Shown: positions 2,437 through 38,010 of the stretch, in pieces
Position numbering within the stretch: the stretch's first letter is position 1
How the letters are laid out: every line of letters starts with the position of its first letter
Assembly (NCBI GenBank): GCA_033065855.1
Contig: JAVXUO010001984.1
Location: 21,001-85,000 of the forward strand
Source: Escallonia rubra
Lineage: Eukaryota; Streptophyta; Magnoliopsida; Escalloniales; Escalloniaceae
DNA: 64,000 nucleotides
Reading direction: 5' to 3'
Program-made: the position numbers and the translations under genes
The notes under the pieces: model-generated
The model's input: only the letters and a program-made list of their open reading frames with translations
Database searches by the model: none
What the model was told of the DNA's origin: nothing

Positions 2437-3200
2437 ATGGCCACCAAGAATGTCATAGCTGATCTCGTTAAGGGTGAGAAACTTAACGGAGATAATTATG
2501 ACGTTTGGCACAAAAAGATGAAATTCATGCTGAACGAACAAGAGCTCGAGGAGCACTTGACCAAGGAGATGGTCGTGCCAACTGAGGCGCAACCCCTAAG
2601 AGACCACACTGCCTACCAGAAGTGGAATTAGAAAGATCGTAGTGCGCGCTACACCTTGTTGAGCAGCTTGCAAAATGATCTAATTGGGCAGTATGATGAA
2701 CTTCCAACTTGCAAAGCTTTATGGGAGCAGCTCAAGTTCTCTTTTGGTGGAACCTCAACTACGCGGCTTCGTAGCCTAGTGATCAAGTTTGAGGAGTACA
2801 CAAAAGACCCTAAGCATACCATGAGTGAGCATCTAAGGGTGATGTCCAATATGATTGGTAAGCTGAGGGATGCTGGACATGCGCTCACAGATGAGCAGCA
2901 AGTCAGAGCTGTCATAAGGTCCTTTCCTGCCTCATGGGCCAATATGAAACAGATATTGACCCACAGTGAAAACATCAAGAACTTTTCTAATGTTTCACAG
3001 CATGTCATCCTTGAAGCCGAAACTCGAGACGCTGACAAGACCCTAACTTATGTCGCCCAAGAGGGACCGCGCAATGCAAATGGCAAGCGCCGAAGACAAA
3101 GTAAGAAAGGTGAGGCTAGCACTTCTGCACCAAAGGAAGGGAAAATAAAGAAACGCAAGGGGGTTCACGCAATGCAAATGGCAAGCGCTGAGGTTTTTCC
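2437..3200 (+). pseudogene. copia gag (capsid) remnant
   Basis: The frame opens at ATG 2437 and reads a copia gag N-terminus (LVKGEKLNGDNYDVWHKKM), followed by the UBN2/retrotransposon capsid core. An in-frame TAG at 2629-2631 interrupts it, and the same frame resumes at once with KDRSARYTLLSS. It continues through SEHLRVMSNMIGKLRDAGH and VIRSFPASW to about 3160. A direct repeat (GCAATGCAAATGGCAAGCGC at about 3073 and 3171) sits where the CCHC zinc knuckle and protease should be. These are missing, which suggests deletion between short repeats. The product would be a truncated, non-functional capsid. Confidence 0.88.
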
Positions 3201-3339
3201 TTTATTTTTAGGGGTAATAAGTTGGACATCTTTTTGGATTATGTTTTGTTCGGACATGGTTTTCGCATGGATAATCTTTTTTCAATTGGATTTAATTTAT
3301 TCTCAGTCCTCTTATTCTTATGTTGTGAATGATGATATT

Positions 3340-4331
3340 ATGAATGATTCTACCACCTGGCATGCGAGGCTGGGCCACATAGGCCAAGATATAATGACTC
3401 GTTTGGCTAGATAAGGCTTTTTGGGCCCACTCGCAAGAGTCAATCTATGAACATGTGAGGCTTGTTTGGCTGGTAAAGCATGCATGAAGCCTTTTGGAAA
3501 GGCTGTGAGAGCAACTCAACCACTTGAGCTAGTTCACTCTGACATATGTGGACCTATAAGTGTAAAGGCACGCCATGGCGCCTCTTATTTCCTTACACTA
3601 ATAGACGATTATACGCGATATGGTTATGTGTATCTGATATCTCACCGCTATGAAGCTTTGGACTGTTTCAAACGCTTTGTAGCAGAGGTTGAGAATCAGA
3701 AAGAGAAGAATTTAAAAACTCTTCGCATTGACCGGGGACACGAATATTTGTTAGATCACTTCAAGAAGTTCTGTGAGGAAAAGGGGATACGCAGACAACT
3801 TACTATTCCTAATACTCCACAACAAAATAGTGTTGCGGAAAGAAGGAATAGAACATTGTTAGACATGGTTAGGTCTATGATGGCGCAAGCAAACCTTTCA
3901 ATATCTTTTTGGGGGATGCCTTTTTTACTGCAGCCTATATACTTAATCGTGTGCCTTCACAGTCAGTTAAATCAACCCCTTATGAGCTTTGGAATGGCCA
4001 AAAGCCAAATTTGGATAACTTGCACCCATGGGGCTCAACAGGTTATGTTCACAGCATTTCTCATAAGTATGAGAAACTAGGGCCTAGAGCAAAGAAGAGT
4101 ATCTTTCTAAGGTATTCTGAAAACTCTAAAGGCTATGTGATGTATGGTGAACATCCAAATGTTGGAAGGATTGAAATAGAGTCTCGCGATGTTGATTTCA
4201 TTAAGAGTGATTTTCCTAGCATTAGAGACGCGAGTAAGAATCTTGACCTCTATGAGTTAGAGGAGGTTGAACCCTCATTTACCATCTCCAAGCGAAGGTG
4301 GGAAATTAGTTCCTCGTCCTGTTGTCGCTGA
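3340..4331 (+). pseudogene. copia integrase remnant
   Basis: Pre-integrase HHCC residues are visible (WHARLGHIGQD, then CEACLAGK), with two stops between them at about 3412 and 3448. The catalytic core follows: HSDICGPI (first Asp), LIDDYTRYGY, RIDRGHEYL and the Glu in AERRNRTLLDM. A frameshift at about 3912-3916 moves the reading to frame 3, where the C-terminal part continues (AAYILNRVPSQ, STPYELWNG) to 4331. The usual copia DRGGEY is DRGHEY here. The gene is clearly inactive. Confidence 0.88.
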
Positions 4332-4518
4332 AGATAGTGTAAGTGACCTTCAAACTAGTGGGAGTATCCCAGACAGTGGGAGCACACCATAAGGACCATT
4401 AGGTCAACAAGATTCTCAACTGCGTAGAGGTGCACGAGGAAGAGTTCCACGTCGTCGTTTTGAGATTGACGGAGAAATTCTTATATGCACTCCAAATGAT
4501 GAAGACGAGCCTACTTCT

Positions 4519-6022
4519 GTGGAAGAAGCCTTATCTTCGTCTGCTAGTAATGAATGGATGGCTGCAATGAAGGATGAGTTGAGCTCAATGGAAAAGAATC
4601 AGGTATGGGAGTTGATTGACCTTCCGCTAGGGCGCAAGACTATTGGAAACAAGTGGGTTTTAAAAGTCAAGCGCAAGGCAGATGGGTCAATTGACAAGTA
4701 TAAGGCACGTCTTGTGGCGAAAGGCTATACCCAACTGCGGGGTGTGGACTATGAAGACACTTTCTCCCCAATGGTGAGATTTGCTTCAATTCGCCTGATC
4801 CTAGCTATTGTCGCCCAGCAGGATTTAGAACTTTTTCATATGGATGTTAAGACTGCGTTTCTCAATTGAGAACTAGACGAAGAGATTTATATGGCTCAAC
4901 CCGAGGGTTTTGAAGTCAAAGGACATGAGCGCAAAGTTTGCCGTCTCAAACGTTCTATATATGGTCTCAAACAATCGTCTAGGCAGTGGTACTTTAGGTT
5001 TCATCATGCCATTACCTCTATAGGTTTTGAAATGATTGAACAAGACCATTGCATTTACGTAAAACGATCCAAGAAAAATATTCTAATCCTTTCTTTGTAT
5101 GTGGATGACATTCTTATAGCTGGGAATGACATGAGTTCTATTGTCGCCACTAAGCAGTGGCTATCCTCAACTTTTGAGATGAAGGACATGGGAGAAGCTA
5201 ATTATGTGCTCGGGGTTAAAATCGTACGTGATCGTTCAAAGAGACTTCTCGGTTTGTCTCAAGAGACATACATCAAGAAAGTCATTGAACGATTTCGTAT
5301 GCATAACTCAAAACCCATAGACACTCCAATGGACAAGGCGTGTACTTTAACAACAGACCAATGCCCAAAGAATGATGAGGAAAAGAATCGGATGTCCAAG
5401 GTGCCTTACGCGGCTGCAGTAGGAAGTCTGATGTACGCTATGCTGTGTACGCGTCCAGACATCTGCTATGCCGTTGGACTGGTGAGTCGTTATCAGAGTA
5501 ATCCTGGACCCGCTCATTGGGATACGGTGAAGAGGATCCTTCGATACCTGCGTGGAACCGCTTATCTCGTCTTGTGTTATCATGGTGGAGACTTGAGACT
5601 GAGAGGATTGGGGCGCTGATAGAGATAAGCGTATATCCACTTCAGGTGGAAATATCTCTTGGTGCAGCAAGAAAAAGTCTTGCATCGCCCTATCCACGAT
5701 GGAGTCGGAGTATGTTGCTTGTTCAGCAGCAGTCCAAGAAACTGTTTGGTTGAGGTCATTTTTACAGGCTCTAGGGGTTATAGCTCATCTAAATGAGGCT
5801 GTCGCTGTTCACTGTGAAAATACAGCTGCCCTAGATTTTGTAAAGGACCCCAAATATCATGCATAGGCTTTCTTTATCACTTCATTAGAACTTTAGTTGC
5901 GCAAGGAGAGGTGTCCATGAAGCATATACCTACTGGCAGAATGGTGGCTGATCCTTTGACCAAGCCCATTGCTAGAGCTACTTTCCTTTCTCACATTAGG
6001 AGTATGGGACTCCGTAGGTTTT
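4519..6022 (+). pseudogene. copia reverse transcriptase and RNase H remnant
   Basis: RT begins at MEEALSSSASNEW and shows KARLVAKGYTQ, HMDVKTAFLN, then a TGA at 4867-4869 in place of the Gly codon of the FLNGELDEEIYM-type motif. It resumes at 4870 with YGLKQSSRQW and the catalytic YVDDILIAGND (about 5098-5130), then KPIDTPMD and TRPDICYAVG. RNase H is frameshifted after about 5600, but its conserved segments remain in other frames up to LRSMGLRRF just before 6022. The copia gene order (integrase before RT) is clear. Confidence 0.9.
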
Positions 6023-19325: not shown

Positions 19326-20629
19326 CTAGTAATACTGAAATTGTAGCGAAAGTTTGTAAGATAAGTTAATATTCCAAACTGTATAAATTTCCAGCATCGA
19401 AATGTTCGTCCATTGTATGGTTTCTATGGCTTGTGTCACTACTCACTAGTACATTCCTTAGCGACAAATTAATATTTCGACAAAAGTTTGAAGGTAAGTA
19501 ACAACAGAGCGACCAAAATTGCTTAAAGACTGCTAGAACTAACAGACAACTAATGTCACATTATGGATGAGTTCAATGTCCAAAATGTCTTTAGCTCAAC
19601 TGCAAGTTGTCTATTAGAAAAGAGTTTCAAGGGAGGACCACAAAAGTCATCCTATTAGGACCATAAAAATGCTGGTGCTAAGTTACATTTCTTCGATCTG
19701 GATTATCAGTAGCCGAACAAAAATCCACAAGTCAAGTCATGAAAGCACCCATCATGTCACTTGTGCTACTTGCTGTAGCAATCCTTAAATGCTTAGCAAG
19801 ATTTTTTCATTAACATTTACAAGATCAGACCCAAAAAATCTAATCAACAGAAATAAAAAGTGATAAAAAAAAATTGACGGAAAGCATAAAAAACTTCAGA
19901 AGATTTAAGTTTACATAATATATTATTTATATAATTATATAATTTTACCATTCATAGTGATTTATTTAACTTTATAAGGTTAGTCAACAACAAATTACTA
20001 ATCTAGCATGAAAAAAGTTTAACGCTTACATGTAAATATGTACTGTTATTGTGATACTTAATTATACAAGGACAATAATGCATGTACAAGTTAAAATATT
20101 GTAAGAATTTAAATTGAAAGAAAATTAACCTTAAAGATCTAAAGAATTGGAATTTGAAAAAAAAATAAAGATGGAGCAAGGAAAAAAGAAAGACATAGGT
20201 TATGGCAGCCCATTGCTCAAAAAATAAAAAATATAGCAAAAAGAAACACTGATACATTAATAGTATTTACAATATAGTGACATTTTCGTAAATATTTTAA
20301 ATATAATTTTTTACTATTTAAAAAACAAAAAGTTTTCAAATTTTGGGGGTGGCCTTGCCCTCCCCACCCCCCCCCCCCGCGCCGGGGGGGGGGGGGGGGG
20401 GGTCATGCATCAAGTCCGCCTCTGAACTGATGCTCCCTTTCGTTAAAAGTTTTGTTCATTTACTATCTTCATGTTCTATTTAAATTTATCAAAATATTGT
20501 ATTCATATACACGTACACAACTTATTGAATTCATCAAAGTTGCTCCTTTGTTTAGCTTGACACTTTCAAGCTTATATAAAAGGTCTAACACAACTTCAGA
20601 CCGGAAAAAACCAATGTTATGCCCTATTC
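19326..20629. other. Intergenic sequence between kinase remnants
   Basis: No gene seen. 19326-19830 repeats the 12770-13040/18564-18860 flank. 19850-20430 is an AT-rich repeat-like stretch ending in TCAAGTCCGCCTCTGAACTGA, whose reverse complement carries the CAGAGGCGGA motif seen at the ends of many plant repeats. A C/G tract lies at 20367-20402. Confidence 0.5.
20367..20402. repeat. C12-GCGCC-G19 self-complementary tract
   Basis: Twelve C, then GCGCC, then nineteen G. It could form a long G:C hairpin or quadruplex. It could also mark a local assembly or sequencing artefact. Confidence 0.7.
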
Positions 20630-21315
20630 TGCTTAAAAAATGATCGGTAACTCATTATCAAGAACTCTTGCAGGTTTCGTAGAATCAAAAGGATTTGGCG
20701 GCATGCTTAGAGTGTCTCCTTTCCCTTCTAACATTTGGACCACAATCTTCATGGAAGGGCGACCCATAGGGTACCACTGAATGCACCATAGCCCTATGAT
20801 GGTAAGCCTTTTCGCTATCAGGCCATGTTCCTCTTCATCAGCTTTGATCCATAGCTCTTCTCCTTCACATAAACGGTTATACACCCATTCTGGGAAGTAA
20901 GCTTGGCTACCGTTCTGCACCGTGGCATCAGTGTTCTTCCTTCCACCAACCATTTCAAGCAACATCATTCCAAAGCTATATATATCTGATTTATACGACA
21001 CATTCCCAAAGTTCGAGAAAATACTTCAGGAGCAATGTAGCCCATGGTCCTTCTAGCGGCGGTCATGGATAACATGCTTTGTTCCTTTGAGCACAACTTT
21101 GCCAGACCAAAATCCGCAACCTTTGGATTAAAATTGTGATCCAACAAGATATTATGGGGCTTAATATCAAAATGGAGTATACGATGATCACACCTTTTAT
21201 GAAGATACTCAATGCCTTTGGCTATGCCTAGAGCAATATCTTGTAGCTTCTCCCAGCCAAGGGTTTTGCTGTTTCGATTTTCAAAAAATATGCACCGAAG
21301 AAATCCCACCAATCT
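20630..21315 (-). pseudogene. LRK10L receptor kinase remnant (C-lobe only)
   Basis: The minus strand encodes most of a kinase C-lobe: [21 protein letters not shown], the non-RD catalytic loop [20 protein letters not shown], and [11 protein letters not shown] one-base deletion at about 21003 then shifts the frame. The rest is [38 protein letters not shown] and a C-terminal DNELPII. The N-lobe (glycine loop, VAVK Lys), the membrane segment and the GUB_WAK exon are missing. At about 21305 the sequence changes abruptly to a segment that also follows the ATL fragment at 60825, so this looks like a rearrangement junction. Confidence 0.83.
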
Positions 21316-21812
21316 TGTCATTCCTCTTATTTAAATGGAATGTTCTCTAATGAAGTCTAATTCCTTGGACAATCTAGGTGCCAGGAAGTTGCCGAAGACT
21401 GCCGCTTTATCTGAGGACTCTTTCTCCTAATCTTTTTCTAATTTGTTTTATGAACATCTGACTGTATTCCCAAAAAAATATGAAATGGAATCTCTAACTA
21501 CGTGTTGTAAAACTAGGTTATTTCTTGTGCGACATGCATAGATTGAAGCTCCAAGAACCACATCTAATTTCAATTAATCTACTTCAGGATTCAGATAAAC
21601 CTACCATAGTTAATTCTGGCAAAAGAAGAGGTTAAAGCTATCCATAAATTGGAGGCTTGGAGCCATCCCTGTCCCCATATAGTTGTAGCTATCATATTAT
21701 GTTATACTAGCATAGTACCTGAGCAGTACTTGGTAAGCTAAATTATAATATCTCAAAAATCAATTATATAGGATTCATTCATAAGTCATATGAATGTACA
21801 ATATAGATACTA
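21305..21812. repeat. Duplicated intergenic segment (copy of 60825-61320)
   Basis: This begins CAATCTTGTCATTCC and runs, with few differences, through the sequence also present at 60832-61320. No coding potential. It is the host of the MULE that follows. The equivalent uninterrupted position in the other copy is about 61320. Confidence 0.75.
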
Positions 21813-22046
21813 GGGCAAATATCAAAACTATACCCTCAAGTTTACATTTGATACAGCTTTAATACTCAAGTTTGAAGATGCGCCAAAGAAGTACCCAACT
21901 TTGAAATAATGTACCATATCAGTACATTGGCTGAACGAAGTCAGATGACGTTAGAAAGTCAGAGGTAAGACTGTCATTATAAAAAAAAAAATAAAGAAAG
22001 GAATAAACCCTTCCAAGTGGCCATGTGGGCAGTTTTGACAGAATTA

Positions 22047-22074
22047 CTCTCTCTCTCTCTCTCTCTCTCTCTCT
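22047..22074 (+). repeat. (CT)n microsatellite
   Basis: An uninterrupted CT run immediately left of the CACTA terminus. Confidence 0.85.
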
Positions 22075-23024
22075 TCACTACAAGAAAAAAGGCTTTTAGC
22101 GACGGACATTTCCGTCGCTAAAAACCCTAAATCCGTCGCCAAAGACTTTTAGCGACGGACACCCCGTCGCTAAAAGTCCGTTGCCAAAAACCCCGTTGCT
22201 AAAAGATTAGCGACGGAAATATGTGATCCGTCGGGATTATTTACTTTTAGCGACGGAATTTTCCGTCGCTAAAAGTATTTTCTATATTTTTCATAATTTC
22301 TGAGTTTCTGGAGAATTTTTTTGAAAAACTATTAGCGACGGAAATTAATTCCGTCACTAAAAGTCCGTCGAAAAAGATTTTAGCGACATTTGTTCCGTCG
22401 CTAAAATTCTATCTCTAAAAACATTTACTAATCTAGAGGACTTTTAGTGATGGAATTCTAATTTCCGTCGCTGAAAGCTTGTCTTTAAAAATTTTGCTAG
22501 TCTGTTGCAAGACTTTTAACGACAGAATTTCGTCGCTAAAAAAGTGAAAAAAGGCTTTTTTAATTTTAATTTTTCTTGTTTTTTAAAAACCCAAACCTGT
22601 TTCAGACAATCCGACAATAATTTATTTCTTTAAACTAGCATTCATCTTTTACTAAATTTCAAGTAACATAAATAAGATTTACTGTCATATATTCCACCAA
22701 CTAACACTTAATACTTTAACTACCAAAATTACATGTTCACCAAAAATATAATATAAAAGCTAGCGATCACATCTACAAATCCCAATAACAAAATTACAAG
22801 TTTCATTAAAACTAAAAACAAAATATAAACCAGATGCCCAGTGTAAAAGTAAAGAAATCGTGGAACCCATTCAAGTCGGGAACAGTTCATTGGAGGTTGC
22901 AATTCCTAAGACTCCTGCATGGTTGAGTGCAATTGCATTTGAGATTATAAATATGCAAGTTCAGAAATAGGCAATAGCAACAGACAATCATCAACAAAAT
23001 AAAAATAGAAAATGTGATTCTACC

Positions 23025-24383
23025 TCACTGTTCTTTTCGAGTGGGCTTTGCTGGTTTACTCACATGGCTGAGGAAGATCAATACTAGGGGAATAATGGTT
23101 CCGATGTAATGTATGCTCCCGTATGCCGCAAGCGTTTCACACAAGCTCAATACCTGAGATGGATGAAAAGAAGTATTAGAATTTCACCTTCGCTTTTAGG
23201 CCGCAAGCAAGCACACACGCAGGCGAGCACACATAGGCAAGCAAACACATACGGAAGCCCACAAGCATGCAGGCACACACGCGTGCACGCGAGCACACAT
23301 ACACAGAGACTAACCATGAATCCAACACAGGAGTAGTTCAGAACCAGAAGCGTGTAAGCAAAGTTCAAAAACACCAGCGACTTCTTAACTAGAGCCATAC
23401 TCGGGGGAAAAGCTTGCTGTCAATAGCTGTTGACAAATGAACGCAATAGGGTTGAGCAATCAAAGAAATGTTTAACCATCTGAGTAAGTCATACTACAGA
23501 GACCGAGTTTGTTACCTCTTAAACCAGCGATCATAACAGTTGATTGTACAAAGAATATGATGTACCTAGGATATAATCCCTATCATATCATGAAACAAAC
23601 AAGATAGTTAAGTTGCAAAGAGTATAGATCAATGCCAGCATCAATAAGCATAAATGATTTCAACAGTATCCTCTTTTTAAGGAGAAAAGAAAACCTTCAA
23701 AACATTTTTAGTCCTTAAACACGTGATACACACAAAATAAAGCCCATTGTGACATTTTACTATAATGAAGGGTTGAACACTGTCAGGATGTTTTGTAAGA
23801 GTTATGAATAATGGGTACCAAAACTGGTAATAAAATTGACAAAGGTCATGCAACTAATGTTATGGGTAGCCTCAGCGAGAAAGTAAGGGCTTGCAACGAC
23901 ACCGAAAATGATCCAAAATTACATTATCATCTTCCACAAACACTTCCAAGGGCATGCATGTGCAAGGACAAGTTCAATCAGCCTAGAGAACAATAACTCA
24001 CACAGTTCTTAACTTGTATAACTCGCAATATATCTTTACCAGAGTATGAGATAAAAAAATAATAGCCACAATATGCGCTACTTTTTCCCGATGGAAAACT
24101 AAAAGCATGCAAGGTAACTTCTAATGCAGCTGCTACAAGAGCAACAATTGGTAACTTCAATAAATCTCCATGCCACCATTGACTACGGTTTTAGCTATTA
24201 TTGCACAAGGAATGGATCAATTAATACACCAGATCAAAGCAGGGATTTGACAACATATTACTTAAAAGAACTTTCTGCAAAAGTTGTTTAAACTTACATG
24301 CCAAACAGCACTGACAGTCTGTGTTGCCAGCAACTGAAAGAAACCAGGTTTCTTTCCACTTTGAATAAGCCTCTCATAAACAT
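23025..24383 (-). pseudogene. Captured MBOAT lysophospholipid acyltransferase (LPCAT-like) 3' exons
   Basis: Four exons with splice signals are visible on the minus strand. 24298-24383 encodes VYERLIQSGKKPGFFQLLA, then TQTVSAVWH. 23516-23579 encodes GLYPRYIIFFVQSTVMIAGLR in 21 codons plus one base. 23315-23426 contains the region ending MALVKKSLVFLNFAYTLLV and LNYSCVGFM. 23025-23153 encodes VLSLCETLAAYGS and YIGTIIPLVLIFLSH, then a Lys-rich tail and a stop. This matches the C-terminus of plant MBOAT lysophospholipid acyltransferases (the Arabidopsis LPLAT/LPCAT type), including the conserved WHG-type His at the exon junction. Such enzymes reacylate lysophospholipids in the ER. In the third exon a TGA replaces the Trp of the YRWQQ-type motif and the phase is off, so the copy is not translatable. 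Introns are retained, so capture was at the DNA level. Confidence 0.87.
23195..23305. repeat. CA-rich low-complexity tract in captured intron
   Basis: Degenerate GCAAGCACACACGCAGGCGAGCACAC-type words. It lies in the intron between the last two acyltransferase exons, where both strands stay open by composition only. Confidence 0.6.
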
Positions 24384-25364
24384 CTAGAAGAACAAGAAAG
24401 TATTAGAAATTTTTCTTGAATCATCACATTCTTCATTCATAACAGCCACCTCGTGTGACCTTAGCAGTTTCTGACCAACTAGTGAGCTCCCTTGCCTTAT
24501 CAATAGATAATGCCCAGTTAATCAGGACAAGTGCACATAGACTGTGTTCTCAAGTCAAATGACGAAATCCATCTCACTAAAACAATTCCAATTTCAGTGC
24601 AAAGTAAATTGAAGTTTCCAGTTATCTGGCAAGTTGTGCTATGGAGATACCTCTACATTATGTAAAAATGTGGTAGAAGTCACCTGTGCTAACATACATG
24701 TTTTTTTAATTTAGAGTCTAAAATTCATCAAGAGTCTACCAAACATGTTTTTTTCATTCCCTAACCTTTTCTCTCAAAGGTTTCGTCCAACTTCTCTTTA
24801 TACATGCTGTAAGAACATCATTCATGCTCCGTGTACACTACAAATCCCTTGGCAATATAAGTTGATTCACTACTTTTTTCCTACCGGGATTTCTCGTGCA
24901 TTGTAAGACCAAAATCAGAGCCATGAAAAAATGTTAGATAATGTAATTCGCAGAAGATTAGATAGATAATCTTCGAAAATAAAATGAAAAATTTCAGAGA
25001 CAGAAGGAGAGAGAGCAAAACAGTCAATTACATCAACCAATCGAGAGCGAGACCGAAAGGGAGAGTGACATACCTGGGAGACATACGAGAATGCAGGCCG
25101 ATACATGAGGTGGAGGAGCTTACGGCGGTGCGTGGTGATCTGCAATTTGAGGGAGATCAGAGAGTGAATTAGGGATTTTGGGTAAGATGGCGGTGCTGTG
25201 TCGGCGAACGGTAGAGCCGGCGAGGTGCGGCAGTGAGTTGGGTGTGTGGGAGGTGAGTGGTTACGATTTAGGGCTAGAGAGAGAGAGAGAGAGAATAGGG
25301 GGAATGGTGTGAGCGGCGGGGAGAAAAGAACGAAAGGGTAGGGTTTTTTAATTTTAAGGACTTT
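24384..25364 (-). other. Upstream part of CACTA cargo, identity uncertain
   Basis: The acyltransferase exons upstream of the VYERL exon are not found. On the minus strand, 24440-24545 has a short open stretch with NWALSIDKARELTSWSE. At 25000-25170 there is a possible exon (HRRKLLHLMYRPAFSYVSQ) between an AG and a GT. Farther on, a CT-rich tract (about 25272-25300) resembles a plant 5' leader. These could be fragments of one or more other captured genes or a promoter. I do not recognise them. Confidence 0.35.
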
Positions 25365-26581
25365 TAACGACGGATTTATTCCGTCGGAAAAAGTCCGTCG
25401 GTAAAAATCATTTTCAAATTTTTTTGGCAAAAGAGAAAAAAGGGAGAAAATTGAAAATAAAAATTAGCGACGGAATATTCCGTCGGTAAAAGTCCGTCGC
25501 TAAAGATCTTTACCGACGAAAAATCCCTCGAAAAATGTTTTTTAACAACGGACCTTTACCCACGGATGATCCGTCGGTAAAAGTGACTTTTAGCGACGGA
25601 TTCAAATCCGTCGCTAAAAGTCCGTCGGAAAAAATTGTTTTTCTTGTAGTGTTTCTTCTTTAATTTACACCCACACAAACACCCCCCCCCGCCCCCACAA
25701 TACTGTCACACACGCACACAACCCCCACACACACTGGGGTAGATGGATGGGAGGGGGAAAATGAGGAAAGAAGATCAGCGGCGAGACAGCGCTAGAGAGC
25801 AAGAACAGAAGATCGACCGGCAAATCGCCACGGTGAGGTAGATCGGTTGTGCCACTATTTTCAGGCAGAGTAACTGTGACGTTGGAGTCTCGATCGGCGC
25901 AACATTGAGAACTGGCACCATTGCTACTGATCATGGTTCGACAGCGTGACGAAGGCAGAGATAGGGGCGGTGATGGCAGCGGCAGGTACTGATGATTGTC
26001 ACGGTCGATGATTGTCGACGGTGAGGCAGTAAGGCGACGGGGATGCTATTTGTCGTGGTAGTAAGGGCGCCGATTGGCGCGGTGGTGGTGACACGCAGTG
26101 ATCAATGGCGTTGTTAGGCAATGGCAGTAGTGATGGTGGTCTGGTGGTTTTGGTTAGTGACGGTGGTAATGGGGATGATGGGTAACAGGTATTAGGTTTG
26201 TGACGGCTGTGTTGGTTTTATGATGGCGGTGTTAGGCAATGGTGGTGGTCTGGTGGTTTTGGTGGGTGATGGTGGTAATGGGGATTATAGTCGCGTGGGG
26301 TGGGGGGGTGGGGGAAGGAAAGAGATAGAGATAGAGATTTTATTATTATTATTATTAAATTAAGGAAGACAAAAAAATCGAACGAATGTGATTTTAAGGT
26401 ATCATTTTTTCATAATGCCGGTTTTGTCTCTCTAACTTTCTAACAGCATCCATCTTCCATCAGCCGATGTACTGATTTGGTACGTTATTTTAAAATTTGG
26501 TACTTCATTGGTTCACCTTCAAACTTGGGTATTAAAGTTGTACATAGTGTAAACTTGAGGGTACAATTTTGAGATTTGTCC

Positions 26582-28075
26582 TAAATATTAATAGATATTT
26601 GATTCTAATTAGGTTCAGACGAATATATCTATGTATTGGCAACATATACAAATAAATGGTAGTATTATACCAACAATGATAATGTCATAACCTTGATAGG
26701 TACCATTATATTAGTTATGACAGATTTAACCATAATAATCTCCCTTGTATCATGCATTATTCTTATGAGTATTATACTACCAATGATAATGTCATAACCT
26801 TAATAGGTACCATAATATTAGTTATGACAAATTTAACCGTAATAATCTCCCTCATATCATGCATTATTCTTATGACATGCATTAACTTTTTACCTATGAC
26901 CACAAGAGCAACAATGACTTAATCTTAATAGTTACCATAATATTAATTATGGCAAACTTAATTGTAAAATCTCTCTCATATCATGTCTTTTTCTTATGAC
27001 ATGCAATAAATAGAGCAAGTGAAGCAGCACAATTGGTGGTGAATGGAGGCTCTCTTTTTATTCGTCTCTATAAGAGCCACAATGACACCTCCTTCTGAAG
27101 AGGGTCAAAAATTGCGTTGACTATAAAAAAATTCATTTTATATAGTCTTCTACATATAGCTGTAACTATCTCTATAGTATTTAACTACCTTTTAGACAAA
27201 TCTGATAAATCCACTATTTTGCTGTGATCCTTGTTGTTTGGGAATAATTAATTAAGCTTTACTCATCCACTTTCGGTACAAAAGGGAGAAGAAAAAGATA
27301 AATATATACTTTCTAGTCATTTTACTGAGATAAAAAATAATTTATTTAGAAAGGTACCAGTACTAGAATGAAGTTCTACATGCCTTTAGATGAAGCTACA
27401 ATTTTTCACATAACAATGCATTCAATCTCCTTAGTTTGTCATTGTTATGCTTTAAGCATATTAAAGGCTAATCAATTAGTGTGATTATGACTGTGATAAA
27501 AGGTTATAACTTGGAGAGTCATCACGGAAAATTTTAAGGTATAGAGCATACAAAAAGAAGAGTCGTGATTACCACTTGGAGAGTTGTCACATGAAAAATT
27601 TTATGGCGTAGAGCATACAAAAAGAAGAGACAAAGAAGTCACGTAAGATTTTAAGCCATAAATACTCTTTTGGGGAGGGAAGTTGGAACTTGCAAGCAAG
27701 CACATTAAAGGATAGCATGCTAACGAGCATACCATTGATAATTATCGTCAATTAGGACACAATAGAGTCATACTCCCTTAGTTCCCTTAAATTTTTTCTT
27801 TTGACTTTTTACGGATTCTTAGGGTATATGTAGCGCTTAAAAACACTGATTTTTTCATTGCCTTTTTACCTAAATTGACTTGCAAAAATGATACTTGCTT
27901 GATCTATGATTGCTATTAAAGTCCAATTGAATGTTTATATGTACCAAAGTCTCTCTAAGATCCCGAAAAAATATGAAAGGGAAGACATAATGGAACGGGA
28001 GGAGCACTTAAATTTTGTTATAACATGAAAAGCTACACGGGCCTTAGCCTACACGACATGGTGGCCCATTGCCCT
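26582..28075 (+). repeat. Intergenic block, unit 2 of 3
   Basis: Matches 61320-62750 throughout and 10961-12190 in its second half. An internal tandem duplication (about 26690-26870, TAATGTCATAACCTTRATAGG) is visible. The ATL exon that follows the other two copies is absent here. The block joins directly to a CCTTATTTTTTTCCTTCC stretch. No coding potential. Confidence 0.75.
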
Positions 28076-28124
28076 TATTTTTTTCCTTCCTTTCCTCTAC
28101 TTGTTTAGTTTTGGTCAAGTTCTA

Positions 28125-29328
28125 GTTAGGGGTGCAACTTAGACGGGTTGGGTTGAATTGGGTTTTAACCCAACCCAAAAAAACCCAATATTTTAAAAGT
28201 CCATCTCAACCCAACCCAACTTGGGTTTTTTTGTAAAAAAAGCCCAACCCAACCCAACCCAACCCAAGTAAAAATACTACGGGTCCGGTTTCAACCTAAA
28301 CAAACCCAAGTGCAATTAACATCGTTAAATCTTTTGTTTTTTATTTTACAAAATAATCATCAACTCGTTTTATTATCTAAAGACTAGCATGACTCGCATT
28401 TGACTTATACGATATACTTTATTTTTGATAAATGAAAAGTTTGATTTATTTGGTCAAAGATGAAAAAACAAACAAAAAAAAAAATTCTACATAAAAAAAA
28501 AAGAAGAAAAAGCAAAAGGAGAAGAACACAAGGCAACAAAAGAAAGAAAAAGAAGTCTGAAGAGAAAACAGAAGAAACCAAGAAAGAAGGAGAAAAAAGG
28601 TCTTGAAAAGAAAATAAAAGCAGAAGAGAAAGAAGGCAGCAGGTGGCGCAAAGAAGAGAAAAGAAGACGGCGGCAGAAGAATTTAAGCATCGCGACAAAA
28701 GGCGAAGGCACACCGGCGACTGCCTCAGAGAACACTGGAAGGTGACGCCGGCAGATGGGTAAATCAGATCTGAAAAAAAATGAGTTACGGTGGATGCCGA
28801 CGACGGCGAGGTGACCGGTTTTAGGATCAACAATAGATGCGACGGCCAAGAGCGGTGGTAGCTATGGCCACCGACAGCTACGGCGTATCCCAGCGACAAG
28901 TGAACGACGACGCCGATCTCGATTTGGGGTACATTCAAACGTCGCCAAAATTTGCCTAGGAAAAAAAATCTATTTCTACAAATTCATTGTTTCGTTGGTG
29001 TTTGTGAGAAGTATGGGAGCACATGGATGTCTTTGGGTACAGTTGCGTTGCGAGTTGTCGATGGTGAAATAAAGCAACGGCATGCCGCAGACTGATCATA
29101 CCACTGTGTCTTTGGGAGGGTGAAAATGAGGAGACCACTGTGTCTTCGCTGGAGAAGCAGGAGCGGACTGTCGGGGAACCCTAGAAAATGATTTGGGCAA
29201 AATTGGCTACGCCTCAGCCGATTGTCGAGGAAGGAGAGAAATCAGAGAATGAAGGGAGATTCGTTAACTTGTTAGGATGGGTTAGCTTGGTTTTAATGGG
29301 TTTGACCCAATTTAATTCATATAAACAT
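28125..29328. repeat. Unclassified repeat with CCCAA pentamers and purine-rich tract
   Basis: Starts TAGGGGTGCAACTTAGACGGG and is rich in CCCAA/GGGTT words (28140-28270), a pattern common at ends of plant hAT-like and related elements. A matching right terminus was not found. 28465-28680 is strongly purine-rich (AAAGAAGAAA words), which creates the Phe/Ser-rich minus-strand frames. They match nothing known. No gene is called. Confidence 0.45.
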
Positions 29329-29329
29329 T

Positions 29330-29482
29330 AGGGTGAATTGCACTAAACCCCCTGAGATTTACACCCGAGTCTCACAAAGGACCCTAAAGTTTCAATTTCA
29401 ACAACTAACACCCCAACTTTGCATTTTCGATCCAATTGGACCCAAAATCGATTTTCCATTACAAGAGCTGTGGATGGCCGTT
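29330..29482. mobile_element. MULE-type terminal sequence abutting a receptor-kinase exon
   Basis: AGGGTGAATTGCACTAAACCCCCTGAG at 29330 resembles the common plant MULE/MITE end, and its likely mates lie at 30836 and 31042 (CTCAGGGGACAGTTTTGTAATTAACCCT). It runs directly into the GUB_WAK exon at about 29483, in the place where the signal peptide should be. Confidence 0.5.
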
Positions 29483-32400
29483 CACCTAGTGCCAAGAGAA
29501 CTGGAAACCTGCAGCAAGAGTACTGCTCCCCTTCATCTTGCGGAACTATCGGCAATATCACATCCCCGTTCTGGTTAAGAGGCGATCGTCGTCGTTGCGG
29601 TGAACACTACTTGGAACTAGTTTGCGAGAACAATCGCACCGTAATGTACCTGGGCGCTGAAAAATACTACGTTGAAGACATCTCTTACAGATCGCCAATT
29701 AGAATACGTGTAATAGATGTCGGTCTGGACAATGATTTCTGCTCCATTCTTCGGGCTTCTTCTCGGAATCCCTGTACAGTTGTACGAGGCCACACGTATG
29801 GGTCTCTTAACGTGGATGGGTATCTTAACGTGGATGGGCCGACAAGATTAATATATTTTGTGACGTGTCCATCCCCAGTTGATTCTCCCAACTATGTGAA
29901 TTTTCCAGTTGCACTCCCCAGAGCTATTTTTATGCTGTAGTTGATACATTGAGTGATCTAAGCATTATCCATGACACGTGCAACGTCAGCCTAGCCTATC
30001 CCTATCCCTACCTTGGGGATGTTGATTTCAGCAACCTCTCTATTTCTTCTGTGCACCAGCAGTTGATACGCGGGTTTGAAATGTCTTGGTATTATGGTAA
30101 CTATCGTCTTCCGTTTAAAGAGAGGTATGTTATATGGAGGTGTCAAATAAATATCATCACTGCGTAATTCTTCAAGTTCCAAATGAAATGTTGTTGGTTA
30201 TATTAAATTTAAACCTCATGGAAATATCTTCAAGTTCCAAATGAGAATTGACATATATTTTCATGCCAAAAAGTTGACTTTAAATTTAAACATCATGGAA
30301 ATATCTGTCAATTCTCATCCCATCTCCCTTTCTCTATGTTTTTAAATTTAAATTGAGAATAATAAATGAAAGTTGACTTTAAATTTGAAATTGAAAATCG
30401 TAAATCAAAAATATATAATTCATAAATAAAGATCTTTCAAAAATAATTTACAAAGTGATATGACTTCATTTATAAAAATATTTTACATTGATTAAAATTA
30501 AATCCTAATATGATGATACATTGATTAAATAAAGTTTTATAAGGTGTAGAATTTAATTTCTACTTACATGTGATAAACTACAATTATGGCAACAATAGTT
30601 ACAATTTTTTTAAATGGAAAGGGAGATGAGGTGAAAATTGACAGATATTCACATGCCAAAAAGCATGCGCGCATTACATACGGATTTAACGTCCAATTTT
30701 AAATGAAAATCTAATTTTGGACTCGTTTGCGATATTTTTGTCAAGGTCAGGGAACATTATTGCAAAAGTTGAAAACACTGGGAGCGATTTGCAAAAATGT
30801 GTAAACTCAGGGGACAGTTTTGTATTTAACACTATGCGAAATGACAGATCTACCCATGCCAAAATGGCATGTGCACAGCACATGCTGACTTAACGTCCGA
30901 ATTTAGACGGCCATCCAATTTTGGAGCTGTTTGCAATGGTTTTGTCAACCTCAGGGGACAATATTACAAAAGTTGTAAACACGGGAAGCAAAGTGCAAAA
31001 ACGTGTAAACCTCAGGGGACAGTTTTGTAATTAACCCTACTTTAAATGAAGTCCTAATGGGTTACTGTATTATTATTAGCTATATAAAAATCTATGTTTC
31101 GAATTGCATAAGACTTACTAAATTTAGACGTTTCCTATTCTTGCAAATCTAATTACTCATTCATATATTGCATAGATATCGTCTGATTTTCGAGACGTTT
31201 GATCGAAACAAGTTCCTATTTAAACGATGAAATCATGCATAAATACGCCAGTTATGTAAACTATGCGCTATATTCATGTTTAGCATGTAAGTTGCAAGAT
31301 GTACTTCGGAAAATTAGTAAATCTTACTCGTACAAAAGAGTGTTGATTAATGGGGACATGCCAAAAAATAGCAGGTGCAAGTTTTCCCACTCTGAGATTG
31401 CACCAAACTTGAATTTTGCTATAAGCCAGAATCTTGTGGAGTACTGTCAACCATCCATATTGCACCATATAATTAACAGATAATTGACACCTCTTTAGAT
31501 CTATAATGATCACATGCTTCCAAAATCTTAAAAAAAGAGCATTCATCTCAATGTGGTCTAATGCGTGCTTTGTCTTTGATTTTATTGCGAAGGAGGATAC
31601 CTCGTAGGAAGGACTTCGATCGGGATAGTATGCTTGATTCTGGTTCTTGTGTACAGATATAGAAGAAGACACTTGTCGATGGATGACAGTATTGAAAGCT
31701 TCCTTCAGGGTCACAATAATTTTATGCCGATTAGGTACTCTTATTCAGAGATAAAACAAATGACAAAATGTTTCAATGATAAATTAGGTGAAGGAGGGTA
31801 TGGATCGGTGTTTAAAGCAAAACTTCGGAGTGGCCGTTTTGTAGCAGTAAAATTGTTGGGGAAGTCAAAAGCTAGTGGACAGGATTTTATCAGCGAAGTT
31901 GGCACAATTGGAAGGATTCATCATGTCAATGTGGTTCAACTGATTGGATTTTGTGCAGAGGGATCAAAACGAGCTCTTGTGTACGAGTTCATGCCTAATG
32001 CTTCTCTTGATAAGTTTATTTTCTCCGGGGGAGAGAAGAAGACCCCTTTAAGCTGGGACACAATATATGAAATTGCTCTTGGAGTGGCTCGAGGGATTGA
32101 GTACCTGCATAGAGGATGTGACATGCAAATTCTGCATTTTGATATCAAACCCCACAATATTCTTTTGGATGAAAATTTTGTCCCAAAAGTTTCAGACTTT
32201 GGACTCGCAAAATTGTACTCGACAGATGCTAGTATTGTATCTCTCACTGCAGCACGGGGAACGTTAAGATATATTGCCCCCGAATTATTTTACAAATATA
32301 TCGGTGGTGTCTCATTTAAGGCTGATGTGTACAGCTTTGGCATGCTGTTGATGGAAATGGTGGGTAGAAGGAAAAATGTGAACGCATGTGCAGACCACTC

Positions 32401-36111: not shown

Positions 36112-38010
36112 CTCCCCCACAACACCAGCTCTTGTTTTCTTCACCATGCCAAGCTGATGACAAAAACTTTCCACCTTGTTGACGCTTACACCTTTTGTGA
36201 ACAAAACTGCTACTTGGTCCTCTGTCTTAATCTGCTGCAACCCAATTTCTTCTTGCAGAACTTTTTCCCTGATAAAATGATAATGCACTTCCACATGTTT
36301 AGTTCTTGCATGAAAAACGGGATTCTCTGCCAAACGTATTGCCGACAAGTTGTCACAATACAAGGGAATTGCATAGCCTATGGGTTGATGTAGATCCTTC
36401 ATAAATTGTATAAGCCAAGTGCTCTCTTGGGCTGCCATTGCTGCTGCTCAGTACTCCGCTTCCGTTGTTGACAACGACACAGTCGGTTGCCTTTTACTGC
36501 ACCAGGAGATTGCTCCTGTTCCAAGCTTAAACACATACCCAGTAGTTGAGCGACGAGTATCGTGATCTCCTGCGTAATCAGCATCACAATAACCAACAAG
36601 CTTGTAATCTCCACCTTTCTTGTAAAAGATACCATAATCAATCGTACACCTTACATATCTCTGCATTCACAGAACAACATCCATATGAGGTTTCTTTGGA
36701 TTTTGCATATACCGACTCATAACACCAACTGCATAAGAGATATCAGGTCGAGTCAATGTTAAGTAGATTAGACTATCTACCAATTGTCGATACATTGTTG
36801 CATCTTCCAAATCCTTTCCTACATGTGCACATATTTTGGCATTTGGCTCTATAGGTATCGAAATTGGCTTGCACCGTGGCATTCCGAACTTCTTCAACAA
36901 ATCTTTGGAATACTTTTGCTGATGAAGAAATATTCCTTCTTGAGTATGATCAATCTCTAGACCAAGAAAGTGTTTGAGTTGTCCAAGTTCTTTCATTTGA
37001 AAGCGAACTAAGAGATTCTTCTTTGTTCGGAGAATTTCTTCTTCACAATCACCTGTTATGATTAAATAATCCACGTACAGTAGCACAATAGCTAGCTTCC
37101 GTTCATTGATTTTGAAAAACAAACTAGAATCTACAGGTGTCACCAAATAACCACTTTGAATTAGAAATTCACCAATCTTACCATACCAGCCCTTGGTGCA
37201 TGCTTTAATCCGTAGAGCGCCTTCCGCAGCTTACACACATATTTAGGGTGACCTTGATTCTGAAAACCCATTGGCTGAATCATGTAGATCTCCCGATCTA
37301 GCTCCCCATGCAAAAATGCATTCTTCACGTCCATCTGCCACATGTTCCGGTCTTTACTAGCTGCAAATGCAAGTAAAACTCGCACTGTTGTAAGCTTTAC
37401 AACTGGACTAAATGTTTTTTCATAGTCTAGTCCATATTGTTGACTGAACCCTCGAGCCACCAATCTAGCTTTGTACCCCTCAATTGATCCATCTGTGCGA
37501 CACTTTATTTTATAAACCCATTTGCAAGAAATAGGTTTCACATCTCTTGGCTTTGCCACGAGCTCCCAAGTCTGACTTCGTTCTAATGCAGCAATTTCTT
37601 CTTCCATAGCTTTAATCCACATAGAATCTTGAAATGCCTCTTCAAACGTCTCAGGTTCAACGACTTCTTCTGCTATGGCAGCGATGGCATATTAATTTGG
37701 GATTTGTCTTTCGAACTCTTGTAGATCTTCTGGGTTGTAATTGCTAAGTTGGTACTTCTGTTTCACTAGGTTCACCTTCTTCACTTGGTCCTTGATACAC
37801 ACCAGTTTGCCAAGGATTCTGAGCTAAGGTATTCGAGTCTTGTAATATCTCCTCTTCTGAGGACCACCATGAAGACGCTTCATCGAACACCATATTTCGA
37901 GATGTATAGCACCTTCCATTTGTTGGATTAGAACATTTCCACCCTTTTCTTTGGCTGTCATATCCCACAAAGTATGTAGGCTGGTTTGAAGGATATTTAC
38001 GGAATAACAA
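36112..38010 (-). pseudogene. copia integrase C-terminus, RT and RNase H remnant
   Basis: The integrase tail (FRKYPSNQPTYFVGYDSQRK) lies near 38000. RT starts with the MWIKAMEEEIAALERSQTWE segment and shows YKARLVARGFSQ, MDVKNAFLHGELDREIYM and YGLKHAPR. A frameshift follows at about 37165. The catalytic motif reads [10 protein letters not shown] instead of YVDDL, a loss of the second catalytic Asp. RNase H follows with [11 protein letters not shown], a stop, [27 protein letters not shown], a stop, and CDNLSAIRLAENPVFHART. It is inactive. Confidence 0.87.

Follow-up and report, generated by a model that had tools for sequence, protein, structure and literature searches.

A CACTA transposon of Escallonia rubra with four exons of a lysophospholipid acyltransferase gene, and how it may have acquired them

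Introduction

By which route does a DNA transposon pick up pieces of a host gene, and what becomes of them afterwards? Two rival models, fusion of neighbouring elements and the filling of an internal gap, have been put forward, and the same question has been called worth exploring for plant Pack-MULEs (PMC8277862). A locus that bears on it lies in a 64,000-nucleotide stretch of Escallonia rubra DNA (assembly GCA_033065855.1, contig JAVXUO010001984.1, positions 21,001 to 85,000 of the forward strand), which we call the window. There, the initial annotation, made from the letters alone, had recognized a CACTA transposon with four exons of a lysophospholipid acyltransferase (LPLAT) gene. As the donor gene, the loaded element and unloaded elements occur in one genome, the breakpoints can be read directly. 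We consider it very probable that the locus is a Pack-CACTA transposon that took up four LPLAT exons as one collinear block, by what looks like gap repair, and that it has been mobilized in trans, methylated and left to decay neutrally.

A Non-Autonomous CACTA Element

No transposase-sized open reading frame (ORF) was found in the element between 22076 and 25651 (Table 1). Its canonical CACTA termini fall exactly where the initial annotation had placed them, the element starting with CACTACAAGAAAAA and ending with the reverse complement of CACTACAAGAAAAA, and the 36-bp arms are 81% complementary. Subterminal repeats of the TTTTAGCGACGGA type are short, dense and present in both orientations. 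A perfect 3-bp target-site duplication (TSD) flanks six of the nine copies examined (L011, L012, L013, L015, L016 and L017). It must be set against this that the duplication is mismatched in the other three, namely the window copy (CTT on the left and TTT on the right, one mismatch), L014 and L018. In the window copy, the right TTT is probably the original CTT target with a later C>T change; this fits the flank, which reads TTTCTTCTTTAATTT where two other copies of the surrounding repeat (L049 and L051) read CTTCTTTAATT.

The locus thus displays the features of the CACTA superfamily, i.e., terminal inverted repeats starting with CACTA, a 3-bp TSD (in six of nine copies) and subterminal repeats. 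It also displays those of the Pack-CACTAs: a host gene fragment enclosed by the terminal repeats without a transposase, and several transposed copies carrying that load.

Table 1. Features of the element and its surroundings, in window coordinates.
Feature	Position	Strand	Remarks
Non-autonomous CACTA (Pack-CACTA) element	22076..25651	.	3576 bp
Left terminal inverted repeat	22076..22111	+	36 bp, 81%; perfect over first 14 bp
Right terminal inverted repeat	25616..25651	-	
Left subterminal repeats	22093..22542	.	TTTTAGCGACGGA / TCCGTCGCTAAAA; families D1, D2, D4
Right subterminal repeats	25361..25639	.	
Left TSD	22073..22075	.	CTT
Right TSD	25652..25654	.	TTT; repeat copies L049 and L051 have CTTCTTTAATT here
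Left arm	22076..23008	.	common to LPLAT-free relatives L024, L025, L027
Right arm	24652..25651	.	common to LPLAT-free relatives L024, L026
Captured block	23009..24651	-	C2065:26899-28725, collinear with donor
Left capture junction	23009..23013	.	5-bp microhomology AAAAT common to donor and LPLAT-free relatives
Right capture junction	24640..24651	.	TATGGAGATACC; LPLAT-free relatives have TATGGAAGACC
Captured exon 5	24298..24383	-	86 nt, identical to donor; ends with conserved AVWH motif
Captured exon 6	23516..23579	-	64 nt, missense changes, open
Captured exon 7	23315..23426	-	112 nt (119 in donor); 7-bp deletion, frameshift
Captured exon 8	23025..23153	-	129 nt (141 in donor); 12-bp in-frame deletion, stop kept
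Older high-copy repeat hosting the insertion	21812..26590	.	inverted ends of about 180 bp; limits approximate

The Donor Gene and the Captured Block

The parent gene that the initial annotation had proposed to look for is present in the same genome as a single intact donor at 26915-31631 on the minus strand of contig C2065. We modelled it from its translation and GT-AG splice sites as an eight-exon gene for a 465-aa protein; for exon 3, either of two acceptors, 3 bp from each other, is possible, and the 465-aa model was the one used in protein searches. This protein matches the MBOAT domain (E = 2.1e-68, 231.6 bits), with LPCAT3 as its best match among solved structures (E = 5.2e-33), and by predicted activity it is a plant lysophospholipid acyltransferase of the MBOAT family. 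A whole-genome search with the donor protein (47 of 47 candidates scored) gave 41 matches, all at C2065 or on contigs with the element; exons 1-4 matched C2065 only, and no second LPLAT gene that could have acted as donor came up in this search. A search with the MBOAT family also returned contigs C1194 and C969, neither of which was recovered with the donor protein. When the element served as the query, matches to C2065 were confined to its inner part; the ordinary gene without CACTA ends is the one on C2065, and not the locus in the window.

The captured block corresponds to 1827 bp of the donor, with one end 16 bp beyond the stop codon and the other about 122 bp inside intron 4, and comprises exons 5-8, introns 5-7 and part of intron 4. 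All four exons lie where the initial annotation had drawn them, in agreement with the donor gene model, and introns 5-7 are indeed retained and collinear with the donor gene. With its donor in the same genome, the block bears out the proposed transduplication of host DNA, and the presence of introns 5-7 rules out a processed retrocopy.

The translation of exons 5-6 of the window copy is recognized by the Pfam MBOAT model (E = 5.3e-14, 52.7 bits against a cut-off of 27), which upholds the assignment to this family. The AVWH motif of exon 5 aligns with AIWH of LPCAT3; we take its histidine to be the catalytic one. In the window copy, the acceptor AG of exons 5-8 and the splice-donor GT of exons 5-7 are kept. 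The "TGA and phase error" originally reported for exon 7 stands in part: the frameshift is real, being caused by a 7-bp deletion common to all five aligned full-length copies of subfamily A (one of two subfamilies described below), whereas the TGA appears only if the old frame is kept across that deletion. In a spliced reading, the shifted frame runs into a stop after 12 codons of exon 7. Exon 7 of the window copy additionally has a G>A change. The last exon is open to its stop, as claimed, despite a 12-bp deletion seen only in the window copy among the full-length copies aligned.

Capture Junctions and the Mode of Acquisition

The same arms also occur in four LPLAT-free copies (one each in L024 and L027, two in L025), which are uninterrupted across the capture site. 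There, AAAATAGAAAAT is separated by 24 bp from TATGGAAGACC (or from TATGGAAGACT, in one of the L025 copies), after which the right arm follows. Since 24 bp at the site are common to these copies and missing from the loaded elements, the LPLAT-free state is likely to be ancestral and the block to have been gained. At the right junction, the donor can be followed through TATGGAGATACC and then gives way to the arm, with ACC exact at the switch and TATGGA shared just before it. The capture replaced 24-32 bp of the element, which is less than 1% of the length of the window element. If these sequences are joined at random, a microhomology of 5 bp or more is expected in 0.6% of cases and one of 3 bp or more in 6%.

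The mode of acquisition proposed for Arabidopsis Pack-CACTAs (PMC13317346, PMC8903248) is fusion: two neighbouring CACTA copies flanking the LPLAT exons would have been mobilized jointly after complementary deletions of their ends. At present, a CACTA-like terminus does lie upstream of the donor gene, at a distance of about 3.5 kb (position 16188 of L009+L010), but it says little because such ends of this family are common in the genome. As formulated, the model treats the two truncation points as independent, and a uniform model would bring two independent truncations within 30 bp of each other in about 1-2% of cases; yet the arm breakpoints are only 24-32 bp apart in the uninterrupted relatives, and both junctions display microhomology. 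We regard fusion as quite improbable for this element. Because 24-32 bp were replaced and the junctions have 5-bp and 3-bp microhomologies, the breakpoints favour gap repair by template switching over neighbour fusion, and gap filling of the kind inferred for animal Pack-TIRs appears to fit better. Under gap repair, an internal break would have arisen in a CACTA element, and DNA gap repair with template switching would have copied the LPLAT block. Whatever the route, a CACTA family with LPLAT-free members acquired one collinear 1827-bp block, and the donor frame stayed intact.

An unrooted tree of the arms, with 16 sequences (L020 was left out, having no usable stretch), separates subfamily A, subfamily B and the LPLAT-free copies, with supports of 0.865 for the LPLAT-free group and 0.999 for B. 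Three points weigh against a gain by gap repair. First, no more than 3 bp are exactly homologous at the right switch, within a 12-bp match that is imperfect. Second, gap repair is read from the breakpoints rather than observed. Third, the arm tree joins B and the LPLAT-free copies against A with a support of 0.996, and a root on the A branch would turn the LPLAT-free state into a loss.

No host donor stood out for the 1-kb interior found in one of the LPLAT-free relatives: with all 20 candidates scored, the matches lay mostly on known element contigs, and contigs C2897 and C1642 matched as well.

Copies, Subfamilies and Mobility

A census of the captured block (23 of 23 candidates scored) gave 40 matches and placed it on 18 contigs besides that of the donor. 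Subfamily A has five full-length copies (window, C1162, C1005, C279 and C1235); subfamily B or its fragments are found on C2015, C1411, C3079, C1789, C1927, C2475, C2554, C2729 and C742; and further fragments lie on C144 (three pieces), C3107, C1886 and C382. Some of these contigs contain duplicated segments (C279/C1005 and C382/C1886, and, as judged by matching scores only, C2729/C742). L011 and L013, the only matching pair among the flanks of complete copies compared, share their flanks at 98-99.5% and are one insertion or a duplicated segment. The loaded copy L014 (C1235) is interrupted near element position 2780 by about 2.4 kb of other sequence, probably a nested insertion.

Both capture breakpoints (7900 and 9726 of L009) are common to five of the seven elements aligned (window, L012, L014, L015 and L017), L016 and L018 each being without one end. 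As the breakpoints are shared by elements of both subfamilies, they argue for a single capture event. Loaded copies are today present at many places and form two subfamilies. Exon 6 and its surroundings are lost in all five B loci aligned (L015-L019). The exon 5 stretch of L015 and L018 is 96% identical to the window copy, against about 82-85% elsewhere; given the shared breakpoints and the neutral substitution counts reported below, constraint on exon 5 or a second capture is unsupported as its cause. Of 1642 block sites, 18 differ between the window copy and L012, and 105 between the window copy and the donor. Plant substitution rates are near 7e-9 per site per year, which would put these divergences very roughly at 0.8 and 4-5 million years, respectively; methylated DNA mutates faster.

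Could the locus instead be a degenerate LPLAT gene with chance CACTA-like ends that never moved as a unit? The presence of the exons is all that speaks for this, and the copy census refutes it, with the same arms and breakpoints recurring at many places together with TSDs. The insertion site tells the same story. The element sits in an older repeat, perhaps Mutator-like, whose flanking parts cover 21812-22075 and 25652 to about 26590 of the window. When joined, these flanks align through the junction in two of the four fetched repeat copies, which are without the insertion (L052, 76.7% over 764 columns; L049, 72.1% over 548), and only to about the junction in the other two (L050 and L051). We therefore give the degenerate-gene explanation practically no credence.

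For its movement, the Pack-CACTA would depend on a transposase supplied in trans by a TNP2-type element. TNP2 (PF02992) is abundant in the genome, with at least 150 matches among the best 150 of 2228 candidates; dozens of those listed have an identical score (E = 1.6e-84) and are mostly 761-aa open frames, which suggests the recent spread of one CACTA family. On contig C244, a 761-aa TNP2 protein with Transpos_assoc and DUF4218 domains is encoded near a similar CACTA terminus, and this element or a relative may provide the mobility. The C244 element has an end that is 78% similar over 158 bp, but the assignment is weakened in that only one of its ends is seen. On the same contig (L048 and L026), the CACTA terminus by the 761-aa TNP2 ORF adjoins the right part of an LPLAT-free relative; the two are apparently nested.

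Decay and Mutation Bias of the Captured Exons

For the counts of selection and of C>T changes, we dropped near-duplicates: L013 and L047, block-identical to L011 and L022, respectively, as well as L044 (4/611 from L043) and L021 (9/307 from L020). Inside the elements, no purifying selection on the captured exons was detectable, as 43 non-synonymous and 18 synonymous changes agree with an expected synonymous share of 26% (p = 0.56). Among pooled copies of unequal coverage, exons are more variable than non-exon sites (60/410 versus 123/1343, p = 0.002). With equal copy coverage, this excess shrinks and is non-significant in both subfamilies (exons versus introns: A, 22/390 versus 56/1231, p = 0.41; B, 24/315 versus 23/448, p = 0.17), and selection on the captured exons was rejected as its explanation. 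These counts suggest that the captured exons are without coding function and decay neutrally. The donor differs from every element copy at 6 of 410 exon sites and 62 of 1343 non-exon sites; such few fixed exon differences and an intact frame are as expected of a working donor gene.

This bears on whether the exons might be kept by selection for use in chimeric transcripts. In favour of such a use, the window copy has intact splice sites at its captured exons, and in soybean, host transcripts contain spliced-in fragments that a CACTA element carries (PMC1947982). Against such a use, the elements display no detectable purifying selection; with equal coverage, exons are no less variable than introns; exon 7 is frameshifted in the five A copies aligned and exon 6 is missing from the five B loci aligned. 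We hold it to be very unlikely.

The mutations themselves carry a bias. Polarized by the donor base as the ancestral state, C>T changes were counted at 18/62 CG, 28/137 CHG and 36/489 CHH sites, and T>C at 36/1047; the difference between CG plus CHG and CHH is significant (p = 4e-8). Unpolarized counts of C>T-type changes over six copy pairs, which are not independent of one another, gave 43/522 CG, 44/920 CHG and 61/3838 CHH sites in the block, and 64/1458, 67/1112 and 108/4253, respectively, in the arms. As a control, one pair of receptor-kinase exon paralogues from the window gave 17/116, 5/145 and 23/684. CHG methylation marks transposons, and the CHG excess fits methylation of the transposon type, with the copies probably methylated as transposon DNA. 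Two observations temper this. First, a CG excess is also seen in the control genes (17/116) and so is not transposon-specific; only the surplus of CHG over CHH, roughly threefold in the block, appears to separate the elements from the control paralogues, in which the CHG count is small. Second, among the 68 differences fixed between donor and elements, transitions are about as frequent in one direction as in the other (22 versus 20), so that the C>T bias arose only after the copies spread.

Small-RNA Potential against the Donor Gene

Exact 21-mers of the donor coding sequence number 223 in 18 fetched sequences and cover 342 of the 410 captured coding bases; these sequences come from 16 of the 18 contigs, with L013 of C1005 and C742 left out. 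The window copy alone has 113 such 21-mers, and a reversed-sequence control has 0. By sequence, silencing of the donor by small RNAs is thus possible, as a matter of speculation. That the captured block acts as a regulatory decoy, i.e., a source of small RNAs silencing the donor LPLAT gene in trans, would accord with these 21-mers, with the CHG-type C>T bias and with a review according to which maize Helitrons, Pack-MULEs and Sirevirus elements contain captured sequences that act as reservoirs of small interfering RNAs (PMC13317346). It sits poorly with a donor frame that is intact and differs from every element copy at only 6/410 exon sites, and the CHG bias reflects methylation, for which a trans-acting small RNA is not required; we consider active silencing unlikely. 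We put forward more tentatively than the capture itself, as a possibility short of an even chance, a combined reading in which a Pack-CACTA formed by gap repair has left transposon-like methylated copies able to feed small RNAs against a single-copy gene of membrane-lipid metabolism. The locus also offers a clean way to ask whether exons captured from a single-copy gene act on that gene via small RNA.

The Neighbourhood of the Element

Beyond the host repeat, the stretches beside the element (20514-21295 and 21309-21812) recur on contig C2367 and further along C2963. Between 29356 and 48000, the window has clustered ORFs, presumably LRK10L-like, in which Pfam recognizes GUB_WAK_bind or protein kinase domains. 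By eye, ORFs at 2632-5619 and 36667-37691 resemble pieces of a Copia-type retrotransposon polyprotein.

Comparison with Known Systems

Captures of this kind are already known, including one in soybean in which exons and introns are retained (PMC1947982). Among the titles and abstract openings listed in searches of open-licence PMC papers, none described a CACTA capture of an acyltransferase gene. What is new here is that four relatives without the insert show the capture site uninterrupted, the survival of an unloaded state being less usual. If gap repair is the true origin, Pack-CACTAs can form in this way and not only by fusion of neighbours.

The Pack-CACTAs of Arabidopsis, rice and maize (PMC8903248, PMC13317346; Catoni 2019 through these) are likewise non-autonomous, with CACTA ends, a 3-bp TSD, captured genic DNA and a low copy number. 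In contrast to them, the Escallonia family has surviving insert-free relatives, its breakpoints point to gap filling instead of neighbour fusion, and a single gene is the only donor recognized. Tgm-Express1, a soybean CACTA element (PMC1947982), also carries host gene fragments with exons and introns retained; however, it combines five unrelated gene fragments and lies in intron 2 of F3H, whereas the Escallonia element has one recognized block and sits inside another repeat. Finally, the animal Pack-TIRs attributed to gap filling (PMC8277862) share with it the breakpoint microhomology and a small internal gap (there, a median of 4.6% of element size); they are mostly single-copy, while here a plant CACTA element, with a gap of less than 1% of its length, later multiplied.

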